NCBI GenBank assembly: GCA_963678705.1
Contig: OY783223.1
Location: forward strand, 682,001 to 746,000
Direction of reading: 5' to 3'
Source: Panorpa germanica
Lineage: Eukaryota; Arthropoda; Insecta; Mecoptera; Panorpidae
Length of the DNA stretch: 64,000 nucleotides
In this document: piece after piece, positions 8,859 through 61,939 of the stretch
How positions within the stretch are numbered: position 1 is the first letter of the stretch
How the letters are laid out: the number at the start of each line of letters is the position of its first letter
Position numbers and translations under genes: made by a program
Notes under the pieces: model-generated
The model's input: the letters and a program-made list of their open reading frames with translations, nothing else
What the model was told of the DNA's origin: nothing
The model's database searches: none

Positions 8859-11800
8859 TAATTCCTCCAAAGATTCGAACCAAGAACAAAGTGTCGCTGC
8901 TCTTCTTAACCGATAAATGGGTTCAACGGAAGGGATTCAAAATAGAGTACAGCGTTGATTGTAAGAAAATCTTTATTGAATTTTATTAGAGAAGATAAGT
9001 GGTGGCAGTTTGTGGTGGAGCTGTTAACACAAAGAAGACAATTCAGTCCGTACCTGGGAATGAAGGCAATAGTTATGGGTCTTACATGAACTGCGTGTGG
9101 AATATAACTGCGCCAGAAAACAAACAAATAGTTCTTCGGTAATGTTTATATCTTTGCTAAACCGAACAACAATTCCTACACATGAAAATTTCCGTATTAG
9201 GGACCATCCATAACAATTTTAATGCTATTCTATTAATGACCAATATGTTTTTAAGTCTCACATACATTTTTTAAAACTTACTACTAATTTTTCAGTTTTT
9301 AAAGAAATAGTAACTTTTTTTAGATTTTATTACCCTGTTTCACTTTTTATATTTGAGATTGCATGTAATATCACAAAAATTTCTAAAATCCCTTCTCCCA
9401 CTTTCTTTGCGAGGTACGTAATTAGGTTGTGAACCTAATATTGACAAAGTTTTCTGTCAAAACCTCAAATATCTAATTATTTTTATTTAATGGGCGAATC
9501 GATTTTTCAATTGTTGATTGAAATTGATGTTAATAAATGTGTATTGGCGTGTCTATTTTATTAAATATCTAAATATTGACGGAGATACAGCAATTAAAAG
9601 TTTGAATTATAGTTTTAACGCTAGAAATGGTCGGCCATATTTGTATGACGTGAAATGCATTTTAAAGTCAGTTATTTGTTGAGTAGGTCAGTGCTGTGGT
9701 ATTGTTCTGTAGCTGTTGGTAGTCAAATAATGAAGTCAAGTCAAAGAATAGTAAGTTTTTATCTTATTTAACCCTGCCAAGGCAAACATAATATTGGAAT
9801 TTTATTGTTCCTTGAAATGACTGAAAATAATATTTGATATTTTGTTATATAAATACATTTAGCAGAGATTTATGAGCTGTAAGGTTGGTAACCTTACAAA
9901 AGGATTGTCATGTCACATGCACTTGGAATTTGTACAACGCTGAATCCCTATAATAATTAAAGAGACAAAATGACTTTTTTAATTGTTAATATCCCAACAT
10001 ATTTTGAGTTATTAAAAACTAATTGAACATTTGAGGTTCTAGTGACCCACTTTATCAATATATTGTACACTTTGATAGAAATTAAGACAAAGGACACAAG
10101 CCCATTCGCAATATTATAAAAGTTATAAACGATTCTAAACTAGTCATTTTTGTCCTTTTAATAATTAAAGAGCGTAGACATTTATAAAAAACGATTTACT
10201 ATTCGACGACATTGCTTCTTCACTTTCCCATTACTATTTACCAACCTTTATCATCACTCTTAAACAAGAGAAAAGCAAAAGAGATGCAGAACTAAACGTC
10301 AAAGCTATAGCAGCTGTTGCACCAACCCATAATGTGTAATATAAAACATAAAATAAATAACATCAACTTCTAACCGGAATATTACGCAGTAAAACAAAAT
10401 TCAAACGTATTTAATAAATTAAACACGACAATATACGTTTATTAATTAATATTTCAATAAAGAATTAAGAAATCAACGTCTAAAAATCAGTCCACAATTT
10501 AATTAATGGATGGTCTCTTATTTGAAAAGAAAAATACCTTTAGTATGTTATTGTAGTAAATAGATCTTGTTATATCTATTAAGTTTTATAAACAAAAACT
10601 TTTTATCTTTACAACAACTTTAATTCCCTTTCAGGTTCAATGTTTTCGAATTGGAGCACAACTCTCAATGTATTTTCGATTCTCTCTCTGTCTACAATGG
10701 CTTCCAAGCAAACCAAACCATGAGATTGGCTCACATTTGTGGAAATATGACCAACAATCTACCATTATTGAAATCAACCAGTAACAAAATGTCCGTGGTG
10801 TTGAAGACTGATGGCAGCAATCACTTCAGAGGATTCAGCGCTAATGTTATCTTCACATACGGTAATAAAAACATGTGGAATAAGGTTTACTGAGTTAGTG
10901 AAATTAGCAGAGGTGTGCGTTTTTAAATACATATACTCAAAATGCAAATACAAAATAGTAAATACCTATTTTCTATTTTGTATTTAAATATCTTTTGAGA
11001 GAATAGAATTTTATATTTTATTTAAAAAACTTTTACAAACCTATTTGGAAAATACGAAAATACTTTTTTCATTTTTGTTACTTCATAGTGTTAATCAGTA
11101 AATATTATTTTTTGAATATAAACTTAAAACCCCACCAACATTAGCACCATCTATGATCTAAAAGTATCTGCACAATTGTCTTAATATTTCTAATTTAAAA
11201 TGATAGATGTGCCTATTATTTTATTATTCTTCCTGTTACCCCAACCATAAGACATCTGATTTTCGTTTACCTAAATTCGTTTATCATATTTTCTCGTTCA
11301 TTATTTGTCTTACCACAAGACAATCACTCCACTACATTCCTTACTGAAATATATATACATACTACCCCCACATGCGACATCCAACATTTATATATTTTCA
11401 TTCATAAGTTGACATTATTTAGGCATGTGTTGTACTTTTAACGTACAGACTAGTGCGACATAAACATGCGACACTAATAAAACCCTTACTTTTGCTATTT
11501 TTAAAATTGTATTATATTTATTATAAGTATATTATATTTGTATTTTTATGAAACAAAAATGTTTCAAAACAACGACGGTCTTTATCAAAGAGAATTCTCA
11601 GAATTATTAAAAAAATAACATTTATATTAGTAACATAAAGAGTATTCTATTTTCTCAAAAGTATTTTGTATTTAAATACTAACATGAAATTTATTTTTTA
11701 TTTTGTATTTGAAATAGAAAAATAACGAGGTATTTACATTTTGTATTTAAATGCTTTTAAAAAGCATTTGTGCACATCTCTGTAAATTAGCTTACTAATA

Positions 11801-14800
11801 ATCGATGATAATTTCTTACAGGTGAGAGCGCTGGATGCGGTGGTACCATCCGATTGAACACAACGGCGAAGATATTTGAGCTACCAAGTAATTTAAAAGA
11901 CTCCAGTGGATATTTCCTGAATTTGGATTGTCACTGGGTTGTTACCAGCTTACCTGGTACTAACATCCAATTCACTTTTAACGAACTGCATTTAGCTCCT
12001 TGTCCAAACCACACCAGAAACGCCACTGAATGCACTTGCGACTTTGTAGAGGTAATATATTAATACCATCAGATTTAAAAGTTAAAGATACGCATGATTT
12101 TATGTATTGATAATATTTTAAGATTCGTGACGGAATGGGACCCTTCTCCGAACTTATTGGACGCTACTGTGGACACAACTTACCGACCAGTGTCTTGACT
12201 TCGTCTTCATCAGCTTGGATACGATTCACAAGTGACGGCGTGTCCACCAGCAACGGGTTCAAAATCACCATGGAGAACGTTCCTTGTAAGAAATTGAAAT
12301 TCTACATTATAGGCGCTTTAGGTTTTCACTTGGTTCGATTGGCATGACAAAGAAACATTGATATTTACAAATTTATAGCGTAATAGATTAAGAGTCGGTT
12401 GCTGAATTCATGATGTGAAATAATAGTATGCCAATCGTGATTCTGCTACAATATTTGTAGAGAGAATTTATTGTTATGACCGTAATCATAATATAAGGTC
12501 ACTATAGTCCTTAAAAAAGGTTATAACAGCAGTATAAATCTATAATACGACAATGAATTTTATCTTTTTCGTTTCTATACACATTATAGAAAAATAAGTG
12601 ATTCAGTGCTTTTTAGTTATATCCGCAGTTATACTCCATAACTTGTTTTAAGTATGAGTCGCCGCCGAACTCTCGTAATTTGAACTATACCTTCTTCATA
12701 CGTTAACAAAAACTCTTTTAATTTTGTTTTTTAATGATTTTAATTCTTTTAATTGTAATGAGCTTGTGAACCATATCTTAATTTCTAAAAGAAACTGTAC
12801 TACATATTGATAAAGTGGGCTAGTACATCTATTTAATCCTTAATAACTTCTATAATATTTCTAATTGAATAAAAATAATTGAATATTTAAGGTTTTTAAA
12901 ACCAACTTTATCAACACACAGTGCAAGATTAATAAAATCGATTACTTATTATTCTAGACTTCAATTTTAACTGTAAAACAGAATTTCAAATTTTAAAAAG
13001 CTGCTTAATGTCAATAATAATACATAATTCATAAATAATAATTTCTAATCTGTTTAATCTTTCGGATATTTAAAGAATAGAAATGTATTAGCATATGTTT
13101 CGTAGATATATTTATTAGTTAATAATCCGATTCTGATCAAAATTGTGAAAATAAAGCGCTTATATTCATTAATCTATCTAATCTAACAAAAGTTACATAG
13201 TACGTCAAATACGTAAAATAAATCTAACCTTTTGCGTATTAGTATACTTATAAAATTGTTTATGGATTATAAAATTTGAAGAACACATTTTTTAATAATT
13301 AAAGGCATGAAATAAGACCTTTTTGGATTAAATATTAGTAGGTATTGTTGTAAGTAAAATATTACAGGGAATGTTATGCCGGTTTCACACCAGAGAGACA
13401 GTTTTGAAAACAGTTTTGTTGTCAAAAAACAAAACAAAAACATGTTTTGTTTTATTTTAAAACAGTTCTGCTTTTCGAATACAGACTGTTCACAGTGAAC
13501 AGACTGGTTTTGTTTTTAGTGTTTTTCTGTGTGTCTCATAAAAATTATAAACATGATAAACAACTGACAAGCGCAAATGTTCACAAAAAACAAAACTGCG
13601 TGTTAAACCAAGCAGACTAAAAAACAACAACAAACGTGTTTTCCTTTGATCTTACCGACTCCAGATAAGAATGTGTTTTGTTTACAAAAACAGCAACAAA
13701 AGACAAAAATGTTTTAATAACTGTCTCTTTGGTGTAAACATTGATGTTTTTAGCGGGTATCTATAGGGTCTTTCAATAATAGCGATCATTTTATATCAAT
13801 AGAGAAACACAATATTTCTGAGTAAAGGTGGTGATATTTTTATATTAACCTAAAGTACAAACTCTGAGGTTAGCAACGAAACACAATATCTGCCAAATGT
13901 CAGCGAAATATTGCGTTTTTCTAGTGATTTAAAATAACCGCTCTTGTTGAAAGTCTTTGTAACATTATATATCTAGATACAGCTTCAGATACTATTGTAT
14001 CTATATATTAAATGTATCTTATTTACAGCGATGTGCGGGCCAGTCATTCTGAATGCTACAACCTCTGTGCAAGTACTTAAATCACCCAACTATCCTAACA
14101 AGTATTCCCCAAATACGCGATGCATCTGGAGCATTATTGGACCTCCAGAAAAACGTTTGCATATCCACATCAAGAATCTAGATCTTCAAGGAGTAGATCC
14201 TGATGGACAATGCTCTCATGATGCCTTAATACTGGCAGAAAAATCAGTAAGTAGTTTTCAAAATAGCATCTTTCTTTATTTAAATTTATTTATTTCGAAT
14301 TCTTTTAGCATACCAATATGATCGAAGAAGGATTGGGAGAAGATTTAGTGTTCGGTGGTGGACAGACGTATAACTCACCCTCTTCCTTTTACATGGTAAG
14401 TCACAGTATATGCGCAGTAGCATTGGATTCAACGGCATTAATGCTATTTCTTTTGTTTCATTTAACAGGGATCACGCAATCCAACTCACAAGCATTATTT
14501 ATGTGGCAATAATCGTCCAACCGCTGATTATTATTTGGGGTATGATTCAAGAGTGACTTTTGTGACAGATGGAGATACAGAACAAACAGGATTCGAACTG
14601 GAGTACTCAGCAGCAGGTTCTGTACTCCTTTTTCCTCCACATTTATGTTTCCATGTTTCGTTTTATCTAAATAATTACAAAACCTATGCAATAAAATAAC
14701 TCTTTATACCAGTAAACATTTTGGAGTCACTTTGCTTCTGTCATGAAAGAATGGGCTTGTGTCCTCATTTTTTAGTGCTCGAGTTAATGAATGTGTATTG

Positions 14801-17800
14801 GCGTGTAGTCTATGAGATATAGCAATTAAAAGTTTGAATTGTAGTTTCAGTGCTAGAAATGGTCAGCCATATTTGTATGACGTGAAATGCATTTTAACGT
14901 CAGTTATTTGTTGAGTAGGTCAGTGCTGTGGTAATGTTTTGTAGCTGTTGGTAGTCGAAATAATCAATAATTAACAGACATAATATGGGAATTTTATTGT
15001 TCCTTGAAATAGATGTAAATAATATTTGATATTTTGATATATAAATACATATAGCAGAGATTTATGAGCTGTAAGTTTGGTAACCTGTAAACTTGCTAGA
15101 GTTCTATCTTGAATATGCTTGAATATGTATAAAAGAGATAGCAACTAGCGGCTGTGATGTCACATGTAGTTGGAATGTTGTCCAACGTTGAATCCCTTTA
15201 ATAATTAAAGAGACAAAATGACTTTTTTAATTGTTAATATCTCCTGAAATATGAGGAGTTATTAAAAAATAATTGGACATTTGAGGTTCTAGTAACCCAC
15301 TTTATCAATATATTGTACACTTTTATAGAAATTAAGACATAGGGCACAAGCCCATTGAAGTGCAGTAGTGATAGAAACGTCACAAAACAGGATACTGCAC
15401 CAAATTCTTTACTGTGGAGTTACTAAATTAGATATTTTTGCAGGCTGTTCGAGGAATTACTCCAGCATTCAAGGTCGCCTGCTGAGCGACCACCTGGAGG
15501 TCTGTACCATCGTCATTACTGCACCAGAGAATCATACAATTTCTTTATTTTTCCAAAGTTTCCTTATGATGGATTCCTCCGATTGCACAACATTAGGACT
15601 CGAAGTAAGCAAACTATAATTTGTTTTTTACAACAAGTATGAACTTTTTGTAAAGTTTTTCTCTGACGTTAACATATTAACAAACAAATGAATATCACAC
15701 TTATCCAATTCCTGACGCATTACGTCAGGGAAAAAGTTACAAAATAAGGCACTGAATTGGGTCAATGAATATATTTCGTCAATGTTGCCAGTAATTAATT
15801 TTTTATCTTTTTTTCAGATTCGCGAGGGTACCAATTTAGCGCTGGTATCCAAGTTGTGCGGTTATTCAACTCCAAGCCCTGTTTTTACCGATACCTACAT
15901 CGTGCAGCTGCGCTTCTTCGGAGATAACATAGGATACGGCATGTACGACATCATCTACACAGCTACTGATAAAGGTACGCGTTTAAGGACGTGACATTAT
16001 ATGTATCGGATTCCTTAAGCATATATTCGATAATGTTTTTTGACGACACAGTTAATATATAATTATTTCTATAATTACTACATGATAAAATAATATTTAA
16101 GGGGTTACATGGGTTTCGTGTGTTCAAAAAAATTTTTTTTTTTTTGGCTTATTAATTTCTACAACATCTCAAGAATATTATACTAAATTCTCAAGTCGAT
16201 CCGAATAATAGTTTCGGAGATACAGCCTTTGGAAGGTGTGCGCTCCAAGTCAGTTTTATTGTTATTAAAAAGTTTAAACGCGTTTTTCTGGGAACCGTGT
16301 TTTCAAAGTCGGTTGTCAAATTTTCTCGAAAACTACTCAACCGATCTTGATGAAATTTTACACAGGTGTTTGAGATACAATTTACTCGTGCTTAACAGAA
16401 GGATTTTTTTTTTCAATTGCAACTATTTTAAAAAAAACAAAATATCAAGCAAATTTACCGAAATTTTCATTTTTTTGGAAAAATGTATGCCAAAACTCCA
16501 ATTTTTACTTTTTTTTTCTTTCCTTCTGTTAAGCACGAGTTTATGGTCTTACCTAAAACACTTATTTTTGTTTTTTCAGTTTAGATAATCCTGTCAGGAG
16601 TTATGCTGACAACGCGGAAGCACCTTTTTTTCGAGGCGTCACCGGAAATGACGTCACAATAGAGGAGTTTTAATTTTTTTTTTTTGAAAATTTCAGAAAT
16701 TATTCTTTAAATATGTATCTATAAGACAGAAAAAAGTTTGAATTAAATAAATAATTTTTTACATAGAAAAAAAAAATATTGAAAATAGGCCTTTTTTTAC
16801 CCCACGAAACCCATGTAACCCCTTAAAGAATACTTTGTGATATTCTCATAAATAAATATCAAGAAATGAGGCATTGACAGCGAATCTCCGCTGACGTCAC
16901 AAAAAAACTCATAACTCATCACTGGATTATTTAAAACCAAAAAACCAAAATGATTTCACTAGTTGATAAGCTTCTGCGGGTAACCCTGTCGAGTTTTTCT
17001 TTTTTTTTTATTGATTTTTCAATTTTCTACAGCACTTTAAAATCAAAATACCGATCAAAAATTTTGTTATATAAAATTAAAAAATAAAATAAAACTCGAT
17101 AGCGTTACCTCGGCATTTATGTAAAGAAAGAGTGTGCAAAATTTCAAAAGGAACGCTCCAGTAGATTTTGAGCTAGAGAGGGCACCGACTCTGAAAAAGC
17201 TAAGTGTGAGTAAAACGCGTTTAAAAGTGTCAAAGAAAGACGAAACCAGGCCAGAGGGGTAAAGACTTAGAACTCTATATCTCCGACAGTTTTACTCCAA
17301 TCGACTTTAAATTTTCACACAATAAACTTAATATATTGTACATTAATATAATTAAAAGAAAAAAATACTGTTTTAATTGTTAATATCTCGTAAAATATAG
17401 AGAGTTATTTGAGGTCCTGGTAGCCAACTTTATCAATATATTGCAAAGTTTTATAGAAATTCATGAACTGTTTCAGGAAAAGGCTGTGGAGGCACATTGT
17501 TCAACTACGGAGGCATCTTCACCAGCCCCATGTACCCAGCAAGCTATCGAGAGGAGAAGGATTGCAGATGGGATGTTGCAGTGCCCCACGGTTCGGTGGT
17601 TGTCCTAAAGTTCGATATGTTTGACCTAGGATCAGCAGAATTGTGTGAAACAAATTACCTTGAACTCATAGAAGTGCACCGGGAAACTGGCAGCGAGATT
17701 ATGAAGACCAGATACTGTGGAGGGGTAAGTTTAACGTATTGGTATTATTATTTATTATTACTCGGCTTATTTATTTGAATAATTTTTAGGATACGCCTGC

Positions 17801-22155: not shown

Positions 22156-25100
22156 ATGGAAAATATATATGATAACATGGAGGCTGCTTCTGAAATAGCG
22201 TCTGACATCCAGGAAGACGATCAACAAGTTTCTGACACATTTTCTGAAAACGAAAACATTGATATGAAAATAGAAACTGAGGAGAGTACTGTAGTGTTCT
22301 CTCATGTGGGTAATATTAAAACAGAAATAAAAGAAGAATCGATTGAACCAGGAAGTGCAAGATATGAATCAATTACTGCCTATATAAAATATGAGGAGCC
22401 AGATTCCTCGAAAGCAATATACTGCGACAACTGCTACACTTCCTGTCAAAACGAGGATACTCTACAGGAACACCTAAATCAATCTGTTAATCCTGGATGC
22501 AAAAAGAAATATACCCGTAATGAAGGCAACCAGAGTGTTGATAAAGATATTGCTGTTTACAATTTACAGGATGCCAGCTCTAGAATTGACGTGCTCCAGC
22601 AACCTGGTGAACTTGTTGATAAAGATCGTCATGTAGACACAAACCCTGATGATAATTGCAGTGATCCTAAACTTGGCGTTAGATCATGTGTTAAATTGAT
22701 TAAAATTGGATCAAGGGGTAACTGCAACTTAGCAATACCATTTTATACCTGTGACGTTTGTCAACAATCTTTTACTATAAAGACAAGTTTAATTAAACAT
22801 GTTAATAGTCATACGGAACGAAGACTCTTTCCATGTGACGTGTGCGACAGGAGTTTTAGTCAAAAGAGTAACTTAACTACACATAAACTAATTCACAGTG
22901 GAACACGTCTGTTTTTATGTGACGTGTGTGACAAGAGTTTTAGTCAAAAGTGTAACTTAACTACACATAAACTAATTCACTGTAGGAAACGCCCGTTTTC
23001 ATGTGACGTGTGTAACAAGAGTTTTAATTATAAGTGTAACTTAACTACACATAAACTAATTCACACTGGAAAACGCCCGTTTTCATGTGACGTGTGTAAC
23101 AAGAGTTTTAATTATAAGTGTAACTTAACTACACATAAACTAATTCACACTGGAAAACGCCCGTTTTCATGTGACGTGTGTAACAAGAGTTTTAATTATA
23201 AGTGTAACTTAACTACACATAAACTAATTCACACTGGAAAACGCCCATTTTCATGTGACGTGTGTATAAGAGTTTTAATTATAAGTGTAACTTAACTACA
23301 CATAAACTAATTCACAGTGGAAAACGTCTGTTTTCATGTGACGTGTGTAAGAGGAGTTTTAGTCGAAAGGGTTACTTAACTACACATAAACTAATTCACA
23401 GTGGAAAACGTCTGTTTTTATGTGACATCTGTGACAAGAGTTTTAGTCAAAAGTGTAACTTAACTACACATAAACTAATTCACTGTGGGAAACGCCCGTT
23501 TTCATGTGACGTGTGTAACAAGAGTTTTAGTCAAAAGTATACCTTAACTACACATAAACTAATTCACAGTGGGAGACGCCCGTTTTCATGTGACGTGTGT
23601 GACAAGCGTTTTAATTGTAAGTCTAACCTAACTAAACATAAACGAATTCACAGTGAGAAACGCCCTTTTTTATGTGACGTGTGTGACAAGAGTTTTAGTC
23701 AAAAGTGTAACTTAACTACACATAAACTAACTCACAGTGGGAAACGCCCGTTTTCATGTGACGTGTGTCACAAGAGTTTTAGTCAAAAGTGTAACTTAAC
23801 TACACATAAACTAATTCACAGTGGGAAACGCCCGTTTTCATGTGACGTGTGTGACAAGAGTTTTAGTCAAAAGTGTAGCTTAACTACACATAAACTAATT
23901 CACAGTGGAAAACGCCCGTTTTCATGTGATGTGTGACAAGAGTTTTAGTCAAAAGTGTAACTTAACTACACATAAACTAATTCACAGTGGGAAACGCCCG
24001 TTTTTATGTGACGTGTGCAACAAGAGTTTTAGTCTTAAGTATACCTTAACTACACATAAACAAATTCACAGTGGGAAACGCCCGTTTTTATGTGACGTGT
24101 GTGACAAGAGTTTTAATTGTAAGTGTAACTTACCTAAACAGAAACTAATTCACAGTGGGAAACGCCCGTTTTCATGTGACGTGTGTGACAAGAGTTTTAT
24201 TTATAAGTGTAACTTAACTACACATAAACTAATTCACAGTAAAAAACGTCTGTTTTTGTGTGACGTGTGTGACAAGAGTTTTAGTCAAAAGGGTAAATTA
24301 ACTAAACATAAACTAATTCACAGTGGAAATCGTCAGTTTTAGTCATACTTAACTACGTGTGTGACAAGAGTTTTCGTCAAAAGGGTAACTTAACTAAACA
24401 TAAACTAATTCACAGTGGAAATCGTCAGTTTTCATGTGACGTGTGTAACAAGCGTTTTAGTCAAAAGTATAACTTAGCTACATATAAACTAATTCACAGT
24501 GGAAAACGCCCGTTTTAGTCATACTTAACTACGTGTGTGACAAGAGTTTTAATTATAAGTATAACTTAACTACACATAAACTAATTCACAGTGGACAACG
24601 CCCGTTTTAGTCATACTTAACTACGTGTGTAACAAGAGTTTTATTTATAAGTGTAACTTATCTACACATAAACTAATTCACAGTGGAAAGCACCCGTTTT
24701 AGTCATACTTAACTACGTGTGTGACAAGAGTTTTAATTATAAGTGTAACTTAACTACAGATAAACTAATTCAAAGTGGAAAACGCCCGTTTTAGTCATAC
24801 TTAACTACGTGTGTGACAAGAGTTTTAGTCAAAAGTATAACTTAACTACACATATACTAAATCACAGTGGAAAACGCCCGTTTTAGTCATACCTAAGTAT
24901 GTGTGTGACAAGAGTTTTAAATATAAGTAAAACTTAACTACACATAAACTAATGCACAGTGGAAAACGCCCGTTTTAGTCATACTTAACTACGTGTGTGA
25001 CAAGAGTTTTAGTCAAAAGTATAACCTAACTACACATATACTAAATCACAGTGGAAAACGCCCGTTTTAGTCATACCTAACTACGTGTGTGAGAAGAGTT

Positions 25101-25606
25101 TTAATTATAAGTGTAACTTAACTACACATAAACTAATTCACAGTGGAAAACGTCCGTTTTAGTCATACCTAACTACGTGTGTAACAAGAGTGTTAGTCAA
25201 AAGTATAACTTAACTAGACATATACTAAATCACAGTGGAAAGCGCCCGTTTTAGTCATACCTAACTACGTGTGTAACAAGAGTTTTAATTATAAGTGTAA
25301 CTTAACTACACATAAAGTAATTCACAGTGGACAACGTCTGTTTTCATGTGCCGTGTGTGACAAGAGTTTTAGTCAAAAGTGTAACTTAACTACACATAAA
25401 CTAATTCACAGTGGAAACCGCCCGTTTTCATGCGACGTGTGTGACAAGAGTTTTAGTCAAAAGTGTAACTTCACTACATATAAACTAATTCACAGTGGAA
25501 AACGCCCGTTTTAGTCATACTTAACTACGTGTGTGACAAGAGTTTTAATTTTAAGTGTAATCTAACTGTACATAAAGAGGTGCATTCAAGAAATAATAGA
25601 CAGTGA
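22156..25606 (+). pseudogene. C2H2 zinc-finger array gene, copy 1 (frameshifted, decayed 3' half)
   Basis: ATG at 22156 opens 380 codons: an acidic N-terminus of about 195 residues, one divergent finger (YTCDVCQQSF) and then 28-residue fingers of the type CDVCNKSFNYKCNLTTH with the linker HSGKRP in place of the common TGEKP. A one-base loss at about 23270 (GTGTATAAGAG for GTGTAACAAGAG) shifts the frame; about eight fingers continue in the new frame to 23936. A two-base loss there restores the original frame for five more fingers, which end at a TAG at 24340. From there to 25606 most repeat units carry stops. Sequence-specific DNA binding in the nucleus is the family role. A protein of about six fingers is the most this copy could give from its own ATG. 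Confidence 0.8.
24513..25340 (+). repeat. 92-bp tandem repeat of frame-breaking finger units
   Basis: The phrase TTTTAGTCATAC occurs at 24513, 24605, 24697, 24789, 24881, 24973, 25065, 25157 and 25249, a strict 92-bp spacing. Each unit is the usual 84-bp finger in which TCATGTGAC has been replaced by TAGTCATACTTAACTAC, adding 8 bp and a stop. One or three such units also occur at the ends of copies 3 and 2. Confidence 0.95.
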
Positions 25607-39050: not shown

Positions 39051-40883
39051 ATGGAAAATATATATGATAACATGGAGGCTGCTTCTGAAATAGCGTCTGA
39101 CATCGAGGAAGACGATCAACAAGTTTCTGACACATTTTCTGAAAACGAAAACATTGATATGAAAATAGAAACTGAAGAGAGTACTGTAGTGTTCTCTGAT
39201 GTGGCTAATATTAAAACAGAAATAAAAGAAGAATCGATTGAACCAGGAAGTGCAAGATATGAATCAATTACTGCCTATATAAAATATGAGGAGACAGATT
39301 CCTCGAAAGCAATATACTGCGAAAACTGCTACACTTCCTGTCAAAACGAGGATACTCTACAGGAACACCTAAATCAATCTGTCAATCCTGGATGCAAAAA
39401 GAAATATACCCGTAATGAAGGCAACCAGAGTGTTGATAAAGATATTGCTGTTTACAATTTACAGGATGCCAGCTCTAGAATTGACGTGCTCCAGCAACTT
39501 GGTGAACTTGTTGATAAAGATCGTCATGTAGACACAAACCCTGATGATAATTGCAATGATCCTAAACTTGGCGTTAGATCATGTGTTAAATTGATTAAAA
39601 TTGGATCAAGGGGTAACTGCAACTTAGCAATACCATTTTATACCTGTGACGTTTGTCAACAATCTTTTACTATAAAGACAAGTTTAATTAAACATATTTA
39701 TAGTCATACGGAACGGAGACTCTTTCCATGTGACGTGTGTGACAAGAGTTTTAGTCAAAAGTGTAGCTTAACTACACATAAACTAATTCACAGTGGAAAA
39801 CGCCCGTTTTCATGTGACGTGTGTGACAAGAGTTTTAGTCAAATGTGTAACTTAACTACACATAAACTAATTCACAGTGGACAACGTCTGTTTTTATGTG
39901 ACGTGTGTGACAAGAGTTTTAGTCAAAAGTGTAGCTTAACTACACATAAACTAATTCACAGTGGAAAACGTCTGTTTTCATGTGATGTGTGTGACAAGAG
40001 TTTTAGTCAAAAGTGTAGCTTAACTACACATAAACTAATTCACAGTGGAAAACGTCCGTTTTTATGTGACATGTGTGACAAGAGTTTTAGTCAAAAGAGT
40101 AACTTAACTACACATAAACTAATTCACAGTGGAAAACGCCCGTTTTCATGTGACGTGTGTGACAAGAGTTTTAGTAAAAAGGATAACTTAACTACACATA
40201 AACTAATTCACAGTGGAAAACGCCCGTTTCCATGTGACGTGTGTGACAAGAGTTTTAGTCAAAAGAGTAACTTAACTACACATAAACTAATTCACAGTGG
40301 AAAACGCCCGTTTTCATGTGACGTGTGTGACAAGAGTTTCAGTAAAAAGGATAACTTAACTACACATAAACTAATTCACAGTGGAAAACGTCCGTTTTTA
40401 TGTGACATGTGTGACAAGAGTTTTAGTCAAAAGAGTAACTTAACTACACATAAACTAATTCACAGTGGAAAACGCCCGTTTTCATGTGACGTGTGTGACA
40501 AGAGTTTTAGTCAAAAGAGTAACTTAACTACACATAAACTAATTCACAGTGGAAAACGCCCGTTTTCATGTGACGTGTGTCACAAGAGTTTTAATTATAA
40601 GTGTAACTTAACTATACATAAACTAATTCACAGTGGAAAACGCCCGTTTTCATGCGACGTGTGTGACAAGAGTTTTAATTATAAGTGTAACTTAACTATA
40701 CATAAACTAATTCACAGTGGGAAACGCCCGTTTTCATGTGACGTGTGTCACAAGAGTTTTAATTATAAGTGTAACTTAACTATACATAAACTAATTCACT
40801 GTGGAAAACGCCCGTTTTCATGTGATGTGTGTAACAAAAGTTTTAATTATAAGTGTAACTTAACTAGACATAAACTAGCTTAG
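39051..40883 (+). CDS. C2H2 zinc-finger protein, copy 2 (about 610 aa)
   Basis: ATG at 39051 (MENIYDNMEAAS) opens the longest intact frame of the family. Residues 1-195: acidic, with four psi-K-x-E sites (MKIE, IKTE, IKEE, IKYE) that fit SUMO attachment consensus, plus a Cys-x2-Cys (YCENCYTSC) that may form a lone non-standard zinc site. Then a divergent finger (YTCDVCQQSF) and thirteen regular 28-residue C2H2 fingers (CDVCDKSFSQKCSLTTH...H) joined by HSGKRP. The last finger is cut at HKLA by a TAG where other units read CAC, so its final His is missing. Likely role: nuclear sequence-specific DNA binding, probably with a regulated N-terminal domain. The fingers differ little at the contact positions. 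Confidence 0.75.
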   Translation: MENIYDNMEAASEIASDIEEDDQQVSDTFSENENIDMKIETEESTVVFSDVANIKTEIKEESIEPGSARYESITAYIKYEETDSSKAIYCENCYTSCQNEDTLQEHLNQSVNPGCKKKYTRNEGNQSVDKDIAVYNLQDASSRIDVLQQLGELVDKDRHVDTNPDDNCNDPKLGVRSCVKLIKIGSRGNCNLAIPFYTCDVCQQSFTIKTSLIKHIYSHTERRLFPCDVCDKSFSQKCSLTTHKLIHSGKRPFSCDVCDKSFSQMCNLTTHKLIHSGQRLFLCDVCDKSFSQKCSLTTHKLIHSGKRLFSCDVCDKSFSQKCSLTTHKLIHSGKRPFLCDMCDKSFSQKSNLTTHKLIHSGKRPFSCDVCDKSFSKKDNLTTHKLIHSGKRPFPCDVCDKSFSQKSNLTTHKLIHSGKRPFSCDVCDKSFSKKDNLTTHKLIHSGKRPFLCDMCDKSFSQKSNLTTHKLIHSGKRPFSCDVCDKSFSQKSNLTTHKLIHSGKRPFSCDVCHKSFNYKCNLTIHKLIHSGKRPFSCDVCDKSFNYKCNLTIHKLIHSGKRPFSCDVCHKSFNYKCNLTIHKLIHCGKRPFSCDVCNKSFNYKCNLTRHKLA

Positions 40884-41950
40884 AGTGGAAAACGCGTGTT
40901 TTTATGTGACGTGTGTAACAAGAGTTTTAGTCAAAAGTATAACTTAACTAGACATATACTAAATCACAGTGGAAAACGCTCGTTTTAGTCATACCTAACT
41001 ACGTGTGTGACAAGCGTTTTAATTATAAGTGTGACTTAACTACACATAAACAAATTCACTACACACAGTGGAAAACGCCCGTTTTAGTCATACCTAACTA
41101 CGTGTGTGACAAGCGTTTTAATTATAAGTGTGACTTAACTACACATAAACTAATTCACAACACACAGTGGAAAACGTCCGTTTTCATGCGACGTGTGTGA
41201 CAAGAGTTTTATTTATATATATAACCTAACTAGACATAAACTAGCTCACAGTGGAAAACGCGTGTTTTCATGTGACTTGTGTGACAAGAGTTTTAGTCAA
41301 AAGTGTAACCTAACTACACATAAACTAATTCACAGTGGAAAACGCCCGTTTTCATGCGACGTGTGTGACAAGAGTTTTATTTATAAATATAACCTAACTA
41401 GATATAAACTAGCTCACAGTGGAAAACGCGTGTTTTCATGTGACGTGTGTGACAAGAGTTTTAGTCAAAAGTGTAACTTAACTACACATAAACTAATTCA
41501 CAGTAGAAAACGCCCGTTTTCATGCGACGTGTGCGACAAGAGTTTAAGTCAAAAATGTGACTTAACTACACATAAACTAATTCACAGTGTAAAACGCCCG
41601 TTTTTATGTGACGTGTGTGACAAGAGTTTTAGTCAAAAGTGTGACTTAACTACACATAAACTAATTCACAGTGGAAAACGCCCGTTTTCATGCGACGTGT
41701 GCGACAAGAGTTTTAGTCAAAAGTGTGACTTAACTACACATAAACTAATTCACAGTGTAAAACGCCCGTTTTCATGTGACGTGTGTGACAAGAGTTTTAG
41801 TCAAAAGTGTGACTTAACTACACATAAACTAATTCACAGTGGAAAACGCCCGTTTTAGTCCTACTTAACTACGTGTGCGACAAGAGTTTTAATTATAAGT
41901 GTAATCTAACTGTACATAAAGAGGTGCATTCAAGAAATAATAGACAGTGA
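40884..41950 (+). pseudogene. Zinc-finger array remainder of ZNF2
   Basis: Repeat units continue beyond the stop. Two carry the TTTTAGTCATAC stop form (40983, 41082) with extra CACTACACA insertions. From about 41163 eight in-frame fingers follow to a TAG at 41858, in the same frame as the upstream gene but with defects: one has Tyr for the first His (RYKLAH) and one has Leu for the conserved Phe (KSLSQK). The last unit ends at TGA 41950 after HSRNNRQ. Without the stops the array would be longer by about a dozen fingers. Confidence 0.75.
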
Positions 41951-52992: not shown

Positions 52993-54805
52993 TAAAGATA
53001 TTGCTGTTTACAATTTAAAGGATGCCAGCTCTAGAATTGACGTGCTCCAGCAACCTGGTGAACTTGTTGATAAAGATCGTCATGTAGACACAAACCCTGA
53101 TGATAATTGCAATGATCCTAAACTTGGCGTTAGATCATGTGTTAAATTGATTAAAATTGGATCAAGCGGTAACTGCAACTTAGCAATACCTATTTATACC
53201 TGCGACGTTTGTCAACAATCTTTTACTATAAAGACAAGTTTATTTAAACATGTTAAAAGTCATACGGAACAACGTGGAAAACGTCTGTTTTCTTGTGACG
53301 TGTGTGACAAGAGTTTTAATTATAAGTGTCACTTAACTACACATAAACTAATTCACAGTGGAAAACGCGTGTTTTCATGTGACGTGTGTGACAAGAGTTT
53401 TAATCAAAAGTGTAACTTAACTTCACATAAACTAATTCACAGTGGGAAACGCCCGTTTTCATGTGACGTGTGTGACAAGAGTTTTAATTATAAGTGTCAC
53501 TTAACTAAACATAAGCTAATTCACAGTGGGAAACGCCCGTTTTCATGTGACGTGTGTGACAAGAGTTTTATTTATAAGTGTAACTTAACTACACATACAC
53601 TAATTCACAGTGGAAAACGTCTGTTTTTATGTGACGTGTGTGACAAGAGTTTTAGTCAAAAGGGTAACTTAACTAAACATAAACTAATTCACAGTGGAAA
53701 ACGTCTGTTTTTATGTGACGTGTGTGACAAGAGTTTTAATCAAAAGGGTAACTTAACTAAACATAAACTAATTCACAGTGGAAAACGCCCGTTTTCATGT
53801 GACGTGTGTGACAAGAGTTTTAGTCAAAAGGGTAACTTAACTACACATACACTAATTCACAGTGGAAAACGCGTGTTTTCATGTGACGTGTGTGACAAGA
53901 GTTTTAATCAAAAGTGTAACTTAACTTCACATAAACTAATTCACAGTGGGAAACGCCCGTTTTCATGTGACGTGTGTGACAAGAGTTTTAATTATAAGTG
54001 TCACTTAACTAAACATAAGCTAATTCACAGTGGGAAACGCCCGTTTTCATGTGACGTGTGTGACAAGAGTTTTATTTATAAGAGTAACTTAACTACACAT
54101 AAACTAATTCACAGTGGAAAACGTCTGTTTTTATGTGACGTGTGTGACAAGAGTTTTAGTCAAAAGGGTAACTTAACTAAACATAAACTAATTCACAGTG
54201 GAAAACGCCCGTTTTCATGTGACGTGTGTGACAAGAGTTTTAGTCAAAAGGGTAACTTAACTACACATACACTAATTCACAGTGGGAAACGCCCGTTTTC
54301 ATGTGACGTGTGTGACAAGAGTTTTAATTATAAGTGTCACTTAACTAAACATAAGCTAATTCACAGTGGGAAACGCCCGTTTTCATGTGACGTGTGTGAC
54401 AAGAGTTTTAGTCAAAAGTATCACTTAACTACACATAAACTAAATCACAGTGGAAAACGCCCATTTTCATGTGACGTGTGTGACAAGAGTTTTAATTATA
54501 AGTGTCACTTAACTAAACATAAACTAATTCACAGTGGGAAACGCCCGTTTTCATGTGACGTGTGTGACAAGAGTTTTATTTATAAGTGTAACTTAACTGC
54601 ACATACACTAATTCACAGTGGAAAGCGTCTGTTTTTATGTGGCGTGTGTGACAAGAGTTTTATTTATAAGTGTCACTTAACTAAACATAAACTAGCTCAC
54701 AGTGGAAAACGGTCGTTTTCATGTGACGTGTGTGACAAGAGTTTTAGTCAAAAGTGTAACTTTACTACACATAAACTAATTCACAGTGGAAAACGCCCGT
54801 TTTAG
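52946..54805 (+). CDS. ZNF copy 3, C2H2 finger array (619 aa)
   Basis: An ATG at 52946, out of frame in copies 1 and 2, is placed in frame with the fingers by the 25-bp insertion and opens 619 codons. After about 90 residues comes the divergent finger (YTCDVCQQSF), then eighteen regular fingers, 19 in all, ending GKRPF and TAG. All fingers keep both Cys and both His; one has Gly for Asp (FLCGVCDKSF). A higher-order pattern repeats: NQKCNLTSH, NYKCHLTKH, IYKxNLTTH, SQKGNLTKH in this order at fingers 3-6 and 9-12. This is the longest uninterrupted finger array of the three copies. DNA binding is likely; it would lack the acidic N-terminus unless the frameshift is bypassed. Confidence 0.65.
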   Translation: MKATSKANIPITKSVDKDIAVYNLKDASSRIDVLQQPGELVDKDRHVDTNPDDNCNDPKLGVRSCVKLIKIGSSGNCNLAIPIYTCDVCQQSFTIKTSLFKHVKSHTEQRGKRLFSCDVCDKSFNYKCHLTTHKLIHSGKRVFSCDVCDKSFNQKCNLTSHKLIHSGKRPFSCDVCDKSFNYKCHLTKHKLIHSGKRPFSCDVCDKSFIYKCNLTTHTLIHSGKRLFLCDVCDKSFSQKGNLTKHKLIHSGKRLFLCDVCDKSFNQKGNLTKHKLIHSGKRPFSCDVCDKSFSQKGNLTTHTLIHSGKRVFSCDVCDKSFNQKCNLTSHKLIHSGKRPFSCDVCDKSFNYKCHLTKHKLIHSGKRPFSCDVCDKSFIYKSNLTTHKLIHSGKRLFLCDVCDKSFSQKGNLTKHKLIHSGKRPFSCDVCDKSFSQKGNLTTHTLIHSGKRPFSCDVCDKSFNYKCHLTKHKLIHSGKRPFSCDVCDKSFSQKYHLTTHKLNHSGKRPFSCDVCDKSFNYKCHLTKHKLIHSGKRPFSCDVCDKSFIYKCNLTAHTLIHSGKRLFLCGVCDKSFIYKCHLTKHKLAHSGKRSFSCDVCDKSFSQKCNFTTHKLIHSGKRPF

Positions 54806-54897
54806 TCATACTTAAGTACGTGTGTGACAAGAGTTTTAATTATAAGTGTAATCTAACTGTACATAAAAAGGTGCATTCAAGAAATAATAGACAGTGA
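54806..54897 (+). pseudogene. Terminal out-of-frame finger of ZNF3
   Basis: After the TAG the sequence TCATACTTAAGTACGTGTG leads into one more finger (SFNYKCNLTVHKKVH) ending SRNNRQ and TGA at 54897. All three copies end the same way: TTTTAGTCATAC or TTTTAGTCCTAC, then this finger. It either marks the true C-terminus at GKRPF or a shared inactivating change. Confidence 0.6.
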
Positions 54898-57717: not shown

Positions 57718-60700
57718 GTAATTCCTCCAAAGATTCGAACCAAGAACAAAGTGTCGCTGCTCTTCTTAACCGATAAATGGGTTCAACGGAAGGGATTCAA
57801 AATAGAGTACAGCGTTGATTGTAAGAAAATCTTTATTGAATTTTATTAGAGAAGATAAGAGTGATTACTCAAATGAGATTATTTCAGTTTGTGGTGGAGC
57901 TGTTAACACACAGAAGACAATTCAGTCCGTACCTGGGAATGAAGGCAATACTTATATGTCGTACATGAACAGCGTCTGGAATATAACTGCGCCAGAAAAC
58001 AAACAAATAGTTAAACCGAACAACAATTCCTACACATGAAAATTTCCGTATTAGGGACCATCCATAACAATTTTAATGCTATTCTATTAATGACCAATAT
58101 TTTTTTAAGTCTCACATAAATTTTTGAAAACCTACTACTAATTTTTCAGTTTTTAAAGAAATAGTAACTTTTTTTAGATTTTATTACCCTGTTTCACTTT
58201 TTATATTTGAGATTGCATGTAATATCACAAAAATTTCTAAAATCCCTTCCCTCACTTTCTTTGCGAGGTACGTAATTAGGTTGTGAACCTAATATTGACA
58301 AAGTTTTCTGTCAAAACCTCAAATATCCAATTATTTTTATTCAATGGGCTTGTGTCCTCATTTTTTAGTGATCGATTTTTCAATTGTTGATTGAAATTGA
58401 TGTTAATAAATGTGTCTATTTTATTAAATATCTAAATATTGACGGAGATACAGCAATTAAAAAATTGAATTCTAGTTTAAGCGCTAGAAATGGTCGGCCA
58501 TATTTGTATGACGAGAAATGCATTTTAACGTCAGTTATTTGTTGAGTAGGTCTGTGCTGCGTTAGTGATCTGTAGCTGTTGGTAGTCAAATAATCAAGTC
58601 AAGAATAATAAGTTTTTATTTTATTTAACCCTCTTACGGCAGACATAATATTGGAATTTTATTGTTCCTTGAAATAGCTGTAAATAATATTTGATATTTT
58701 GATATATAAATACATATAGCAGAACTTTATGAGCTGTAAGGTTGGTAACCGTACACAAGGATTGTGATGTCACATGCATTTGGAATGTGTCCAACGTTGA
58801 ATCCCTTTAATAATTAAAGAGAAAAGATGACTTTTTTAATTGTTAATGTATCCAGAAATAAGTTATTAAAAAGAAGGAGTTATTAAAAAATAATTGAGCA
58901 TTTGAGGTTCTAGTAACCCACTTTATCAATATATAGTACAGTTTTATTGAAATTAAGACATAGGACACAAGCCCATTGAAGTGCAGTAGTGATAGAAACG
59001 TCACAAAACAAGACACTTCACCAAATTGTTTACTGAGAAGTTACTAAATGAAATATTTTTGCAGGCTGTTCGAGGAATTACTCCAGCATTCAAGGTCGCC
59101 TGCTGAGCGACCACCTGGAGGTCTGTACCATCGTCATTACTGCACCAGAGAATCATACAATTTCACTATTTTTCCAAAGTTTCCTTATGATGGATTCCTC
59201 CGATTGCACAACGTTAGGACTCGAAGTAAAAAAAACTATAATGTGTTTTTTAGAACAAGTATTGACTTGTACTAAACTTTTTCTCTGACGTTATACGTCA
59301 TGAATTGGATTGGTTAAGTTTTTATTTACAAATATTAACAAACAAATGAATATCATATTAGTTCAATTCATGACGCATAACATCAGAGAGAAAGTTATAA
59401 AATAAGGTCCTTAATTTGTTAAATTTGGTCTATGAATATATTTCGTCAATGTTGCCAGTAATTCATTTTCTATCTTTTTTTCAGATTCGCGAGGGTACTA
59501 ATCTAGCGCTGGTATCCAAGTTGTGCGCTTACTCAACTCCCAGCCCGGTTTTTACTGATACCAACATCGTGCAGCTGCGCTTCTTCGGAGATAACATAGG
59601 CTACGGCATGTACGACATCATCTACACGGCCACTGATAAAGGTACTCGTTTAAGGACGTGACATTATTTGAATTGGATTCCTTAAGCATATACTCGATAA
59701 TGTTTTTTGACGACACAGTTAATATATAATTATTTCAATAATTACTACATGATAAAATAACATTTAAAGAATACTTTGTGAAATTTAAATAAACAAATAT
59801 CAAGAAATGAGGCATTGACAGCGAATCTCCGCAGACGTCACAAAAAAAGTTGCATTGTGGTGCCGCTCATAACTCATCATTGGATTTTCTGAAATCGAAA
59901 AACCAAAATGATTTCATTAGTTGATAAGATTCTGCAAGTAATCCTGTCCAGTGTTTCTTTTTTTATTGATTTTTCAATTTTTTACAGCACTTAAAAGTCA
60001 AAATACCGATTTTTCATGAAAAAAATCAGAAACTTTGTTATTTTAAAACACGTTAAAATAAAAAAAATAAAAAAACCCGACAGCGTTACCACGGCATTTA
60101 TGTAAAGAAAAAGTGTGCGAAATTTCAAAAGAATCGGTGCAGTACATTTTGAACTAGAGAGGTCACCGACTCTGTAAAAGCTAAGTGTGAGAAAAACGCT
60201 TTTAAAAGTTTCAAAGAAAGACGAAACTAGACCAGAGAGGTGAAAACTTAAAACTCTATATCTCCGACAGTTTTACTCCAATCTACTTCAAATTTTCACA
60301 CAATAAATTTAATATATTGTACATTAATATAAATAAAAGAAAAATATACTATTTTAATTGTTAATATCTCGTAAAATATAGAGAGTTATTTGAGGTCCTG
60401 GTAGTCAACTTTATCAATATATTGCAAAGTTTTATAGAAATTAAGTCACCCATTCATGAACTGTTTCAGGAAAAGGCTGTGGAGGCACATTGTTCAACTA
60501 CGGGGGCATCTTCACCAGCCCCATGTACCCAGCAAGCTATCGAGAGGAGAAGGATTGCAGATGGGATGTTGCAGTGCCCCATGGTTCGGTGGTTGTCCTA
60601 AAGTTCGATATGTTTGACCTAGGATCAGCAGAATTGTGTGAAACAAATTACCTTGAACTCATAGAAGTGCACCGGGAAACTAGCAGCAAGATTATGAAGA

Positions 60701-61939
60701 CCAGATACTGTGGAGGGGTAAGTTTAACGTATTGGTATTATTATTTATTATTATTCGACTTATTTATTTGAATAATTTTTAGGATACGCCTGCAAACTTC
60801 TATAGCGCAACCAATGAATTGGCGGTTCGCTATGTAACGACTGTTAATAACGGCGGAACCGGATGGACTGCTACTTTCATAGCGACTCTACCAGGTACGG
60901 ATGTTGTCTCACGACAGTACTACTTTCATGTAACTGTCGCGATAGTACTGTTGACTATCAGGTTATCTATACGGCGCCAGAAGAAATTCGCCTTGCAGGG
61001 CCGCATAGTTTTATGCGGTATCTTTTACACGGCGTGACTTTTATCGAATAGTAACCGAACAAGTGTTTAGTGGTGAAGTATCATTTACACGTGTTTCAAG
61101 TTTATTATTAGAAAATGATTGAAGAATCTTTTATAGATAATGATTTATTGATTTCTTTGATGAAACAAAAGTCCGTTTTGTGAGATAACGCTATGGAATT
61201 ATATAAAAATCGCGTTGCAACTCAAGCGGCGTTGCAACTTAATCAACAATAATTCGGCTACTATAAATTCTAGCAGTACAAATCTAACAACACCGAAATC
61301 TATTGATACAGATATTTTAAGAGACAGTTACTACTTTTCACGGTAGCATAAAATCAATGCATCACGCGTTAAGTAGACGAACTGCCTTGATATTTATATT
61401 AACGTTTTTATTTCTTTGAATATTTAAAAGTTCACAAAACTGTAATTCATCAAATTTGAATACAGTTTTGCCGCTTGTTTTAGATATGCATAATACGTCA
61501 TAGAAGAAATAAGTAATCGAGTATATTTTTCTTTTTGGTCAACCTTTGTAAAATAAAACTTGATGGGATACACAACGCAACTGTTAGTAGTAAATGATGT
61601 ATTGCACAAACCGACACACGTATGCGTCTCTGTAAAGAAATATATATAATAAAGAATATAAATGAAAGAAATTGCAAATCTGAGAACGTTACGTACAATG
61701 CATTAGAATTTTCTATAACGTTGAATCCCTTTCATAATTAAAGAGACAAAATGCTTTTCTTAATTCTTAATATCTCCTTGAGTTATTTGAGGTCCTGATA
61801 ACCAACTTTATCAATAGTACAGTTTAATAGAAATTTGGTCATGATTCACAAGTCCATTTTTGTTTTTTCATAATTGTTGTTTACATAACTGTTTAAGTAA
61901 AATTATATTTTTTCAGGAGCTGAAGTTTCAACATGGTAA
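57718..61939 (+). pseudogene. Cubilin-like multi-CUB gene, copy C (internal deletion)
   Basis: Exons kept: <57718-57820, 57888-about 58010, 59065-59225, 59485-59641, 60470-60717, 60783-60894, 61917-61939 (TAA). Copy A exons 3-8 (10635-14616) are missing, removing half of one CUB domain and two whole ones. Exon 2 has also lost its splice donor through a 25-bp deletion: ATAGTTAAACCG replaces ATAGTTCTTCGGTAATG...CTAAACCG. The remaining 3' exons have normal lengths and phases and encode two intact CUB domains, with one Gly-to-Ala change (KLCAYS for KLCGYS). Without a start or a donor in exon 2 the full gene cannot be made; a transcript from the last five exons is possible only with a new start. 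Confidence 0.8.
58343..58977 (+). mobile_element. MITE-1, recombinant copy in CUB-C
   Basis: Both 16-bp ends are perfect. The left flank equals that of the MITE-1 in CUB-A intron 2 and the right flank equals that of the MITE-1 in CUB-A intron 8. Internally it follows the intron-2 version up to about 58760 (it has AGTCAAATAATCAAGTC and ACACAAGGATTGTG) and switches to the intron-8 version by TGTCCAACGTTGAATCC. Confidence 0.85.

Follow-up and report, generated by a model that had tools for sequence, protein, structure and literature searches.

We examined a 64,000-nt stretch of Panorpa germanica DNA (GCA_963678705.1, contig OY783223.1, positions 682,001-746,000, forward strand; hereafter the window), which holds an array of broken cubilin-like gene fragments. 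In one fragment, copy C, a single miniature inverted-repeat transposable element (MITE) of the MITE-1 family stands where another, copy A, has two such elements with six exons between them. Positions in copies A and C are window positions; those of element D1 and locus F, discussed below, are given on C20. Each array copy is an internal piece spanning about five CUB domains; a normal 5' end is lacking, and the 5' boundary falls mid-exon, on a dispersed repeat. All of the CUB domains (5/5) matched PF00431 above cut-off, and the best sequence match of the CUB protein was cubilin (PDB 3kq4_B). The copies are patchworks whose nearest relative differs segment by segment. We mapped the following exons and elements.

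57730..57820, + strand: exon 1 of copy C (cubilin part; truncated on the 5' side)
57888..58012, + strand: exon 2 of copy C (first half of CUB1); splice donor missing, with 25 bp gone after 58012
59065..59225, + strand: exon 9 of copy C (first half of CUB4)
59485..59641, + strand: exon 10 of copy C (second half of CUB4)
60470..60717, + strand: exon 11 of copy C (CUB5, first part)
60783..60894, + strand: exon 12 of copy C (CUB5, second part)
9009..9138, + strand: exon 2 of copy A
10635..10861, + strand: exon 3 of copy A (second half of CUB1), not in C
11822..12051, + strand: exon 4 of copy A (CUB2a), not in C
12123..12285, + strand: exon 5 of copy A (CUB2b), not in C
14029..14246, + strand: exon 6 of copy A (CUB3a), not in C
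14309..14395, + strand: exon 7 of copy A (CUB3b), not in C
14469..14616, + strand: exon 8 of copy A (CUB3c), not in C
58343..58977, + strand: single MITE-1 of copy C, putative recombinant (left flank that of A1, right flank that of A2)
9489..10106, + strand: MITE-1 copy A1, in intron 2 of copy A
14750..15356, + strand: MITE-1 copy A2, in intron 8 of copy A, within a MITE-5
14710..14749, + strand: left half of MITE-5, copy A (terminal repeats match at 14/17 positions)
15357..15414, + strand: right half of MITE-5, copy A
58978..59035, + strand: right half of MITE-5, copy C; left half gone

The MITE-1 of copy C is 635 bp long and has the terminal inverted repeats AATGGGCTTGTGTCC and GGACACAAGCCCATT. 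The family is of high copy number (3523 first-look candidates in the genome, 40 of them scored); the copy C element carries no transposase gene, the longest listed open reading frame overlapping 58343-58977 being 57 amino acids long. Element and exon mapping bore out the claim of an earlier note on this DNA that A1 and A2 flank exons 3-8 of copy A in the same orientation. Flank comparison likewise upheld its claim that the one element of copy C combines the left flank of A1 with the right flank of A2, and only the right half of MITE-5 is left there, as it had also stated. Missing from copy C are exons 3-8 (about 5.26 kb in A), the right flank of A1 and the left half of MITE-5, all of which can be read directly from the DNA. 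Independent insertion of a MITE-1 into copy C was ruled out because the left site is that of A1 and the right flank is A2's half of MITE-5. Target-site duplications (probably a 2-bp AT within AATT, judging from a single site, L006, nested in another MITE-1) were uninformative on recombination because A1, A2 and the copy C element all lie in the same AAT...ATT context.

By far the best explanation of this junction, and in our judgment a very probable one, is homologous exchange between A1 and A2. Copy C would go back to a duplicated cubilin-like fragment whose introns 2 and 8 held A1 and A2, respectively, as direct repeats. A homology-directed exchange, either crossing over of the misaligned repeats or single-strand annealing after a break, would have fused the two into one hybrid MITE-1, with loss of some 5.3 kb of intervening DNA and of exons 3-8 in it. 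The exchange point would lie to the right of 58787; should the middle of the element be an old A1 allele, it would also lie to the left of 58826. The enzymatic route, and whether the partners lay in one array copy or in two, are parts of the explanation that we infer.

Copies A and D retain A1, exons 3-8 and A2. Locus F (C20, about 1.834-1.842 Mb) is more complete: exons 1-11 follow one another in order, exons 1-10 within the fetched part and exon 11 beyond it. Its exon 1 has a splice acceptor, which is missing from A and C, and upstream on the same strand (1854956-1865162) are seven weaker CUB matches (E 1.5e-7 to 5.7e-4). Locus F also carries the A2 insertion (F2, internally shortened) between both MITE-5 halves, an arrangement found in 7/9 copies. 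Between its exons 2 and 3 lies F1, the left half of a MITE-1, about 320 bp left of the A1 site and without either A1 flank; F1 appears to be the A1 ortholog, moved up by a deletion. Locus F is probably the parent gene. From the states of A, D and F, parsimony over the copies indicates that the two-repeat state is ancestral and the single-MITE state of copy C derived.

The interior of the hybrid element was less clear-cut. An apparent switch from the A1 to the A2 version is present near 58760-58790, as the earlier note had said, but as evidence of recombination it is weak. A breakpoint test run with control copies gave a divided answer: the ends of the element fit the relatives of A1 and A2, respectively, but the middle fits neither. 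Rare shared states tie copy C to A1 relatives at the left end only and to A2 relatives at the right end only.

Several observations weigh against an A1-A2 exchange. The interior break lacks specificity, since it falls at the same place in 19/30 other MITE-1 copies compared with A1/A2 and in 7/30 compared with D1/B2. The exclusive states (n=4) each recur in no more than one or two group members. The middle of the copy C element (58501-58790) differs by 9% from D1 and by 5% from E1, exceeding the flank difference; no A1-specific state occurs in it, and the 58529 state common to A1, D1, E1 and F1 is absent. A 10-bp gap at 58412 is common to copy C and 8/28 other covering copies, 7 of which had been fetched for matching C's left piece, but to no A1 ortholog. 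Finally, the reciprocal duplication was not found in the whole genome, where the earlier note had suggested looking for it: there are 7 loci with exon 8 and 5 with exon 3 (48/48 and 66/66 candidates scored), an exon 9 of its own follows each exon 8, and the nearest same-strand exon 3 downstream of an exon 8 is about 17 kb away. A deletion need not leave such a product, and its absence excludes nothing.

A divergent MITE tract is shared by A1 (9819-9867) and D1 (C20:753370-753418) and is not present in E1. A genome-wide search allowing up to 2 mismatches turned up no donor for it elsewhere; it may have spread by gene conversion, either from MITE to MITE or from copy to copy.

The unusual middle could point to a three-part mosaic, in which a third MITE-1 took part in the exchange or the middle of the hybrid was later overwritten by conversion from a dispersed MITE-1. 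We regard this as possible but rather unlikely. Differences between C and D1 rise from 4/158 in 58343-58500 to 26/290 in 58501-58790; the middle is best matched by generic copies (94%, C20:2803276), with no A1 or A2 ortholog among the 39 other matches listed. Moreover, E1's lack of the A1/D1 tract goes with an A1-E1 difference of 10/140, as against 18/626 in the flank (p = 0.023). However, no donor was found: the only place in the genome with the five clustered private states of 58553-58568, at ≤2 mismatches, is C itself, and counting the cluster as one event reduces the C-E1 excess to p = 0.056.

A second variant, likewise possible but rather unlikely, places the partners in two array copies, with unequal crossing over between the A1 of one and the A2 of another. 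The patchwork nature of the copies agrees with it, as does the fall in identity between C and A from 97.0% left of the MITE to 92.1% just right of it. By contrast, the identity of C to D is much the same to the left of the MITE (97.4%) as to its right (95.9 and 97.1%), so a single D-like copy would suffice and two are not required.

Non-homologous end joining after chance cuts inside both MITEs is very improbable. Deletions of that type do occur in other copies, such as copy E (minus strand of the locus; L029 near 1498), where exons 6 to mid-10 are gone and the junction of A 13966 and A 15914 shows an overlap of about 2 bp but no MITE; yet the copy C element retains family length and register over the join, which only luck would give. 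An assembly misjoin at the repeat is less probable still: the element has 12 substitutions private among the compared sequences, a private 12-bp insertion and small deletions, so the assembled A1 and A2 spliced together would not yield it. That copy C is ancestral, with exons 3-8 inserted into A between two MITEs, a possibility the earlier note had raised against itself, has virtually nothing to recommend it: we found no point in its favor, and it is contradicted by exons 3-8 standing in order at locus F, by exon 3 completing the CUB domain begun by exon 2, and by the position of A2 inside MITE-5.

The deletion in copy C did not have the protein consequence claimed for it, a neat loss of one half and two whole CUB domains. 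Exons 3-8 total 1073 nt, and exon 2 of copy C is neither spliceable, its donor being gone, nor in frame with exon 9; the copies, moreover, begin mid-exon. The fragment had already been cut at its 5' end before the deletion and looks to be decaying; there was therefore probably no outcome at the protein level and no working protein reshaped. Changes private to one copy, leaving exon 1 aside and summed over the nine copies other than F, numbered 57 nonsynonymous to 35 synonymous (6:4 in C), a ratio that is a sign of relaxed constraint and not proof of neutrality. Pairwise ratios of nonsynonymous to synonymous differences (pN/pS) against F or A were low (0.08-0.51), probably an inheritance from a constrained parent, and there may be constraint on the array copies themselves.

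A direct junction of exons 1 and 9 would keep the frame (phase 1 to phase 1), and the resulting reading frame, open through exon 12, would lack exactly CUB1-CUB3. It is conceivable, though we give it little credence, that the exchange left exon 2 out of frame and that the 25-bp donor deletion then made a clean domain loss of a ragged deletion, with exon 2 skipped and exon 1 spliced to exon 9. If copy C is transcribed, this would be a two-step path from imprecise deletion to modular domain loss.

Elsewhere in the window, 84-bp tandem arrays at 22833-25576, 39723-41856 and 53274-54867 are interspersed with the CUB fragments; we take their units to resemble C2H2 zinc fingers. The window opens with a 901-bp tandem unit (1-2448; direct repeat 1-1547 versus 902-2448, 99.9% identity).

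Word searches of the open-access literature returned no paper on this locus, none that brought cubilin together with transposable elements and tandem duplication, and no title on MITE-MITE exon deletion in an animal gene, although a judgment by titles does not prove that none exists. Transposon-mediated homologous exon deletion has long been known, and the case of copy C is real but ordinary. Its value is as a clean natural example of two MITEs deleting the exons between them, with undeleted relatives and the probable parent locus in one genome. It also exposes a trap: when a recombinant is compared with its two supposed parents only, ordinary family members can look mosaic, and unrelated copies are therefore needed as controls.

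Like cubilin (PDB 3kq4_B), the array copies encode tandem CUB domains, each of which, in our reading of the fragment, starts after a phase-1 intron; unlike cubilin, they are internal pieces. In solo long terminal repeat (LTR) formation, as described in PMC4290129, direct repeats likewise collapse to one with loss of the intervening DNA, but both LTRs come from one element and flank only that element. A close parallel is found in human LDLR, for which PMC1523332 describes five Alu-flanked deletions, the exon 9-14 case removing six exons between two Alu Sq. There, as very probably in copy C, two dispersed repeats in different introns recombine and whole exons are lost, six of them in the exon 9-14 case as in copy C; the LDLR events involve Alu retroelements and a working disease gene, whereas that of copy C involves a DNA-transposon MITE and a decaying cubilin-like duplicate.
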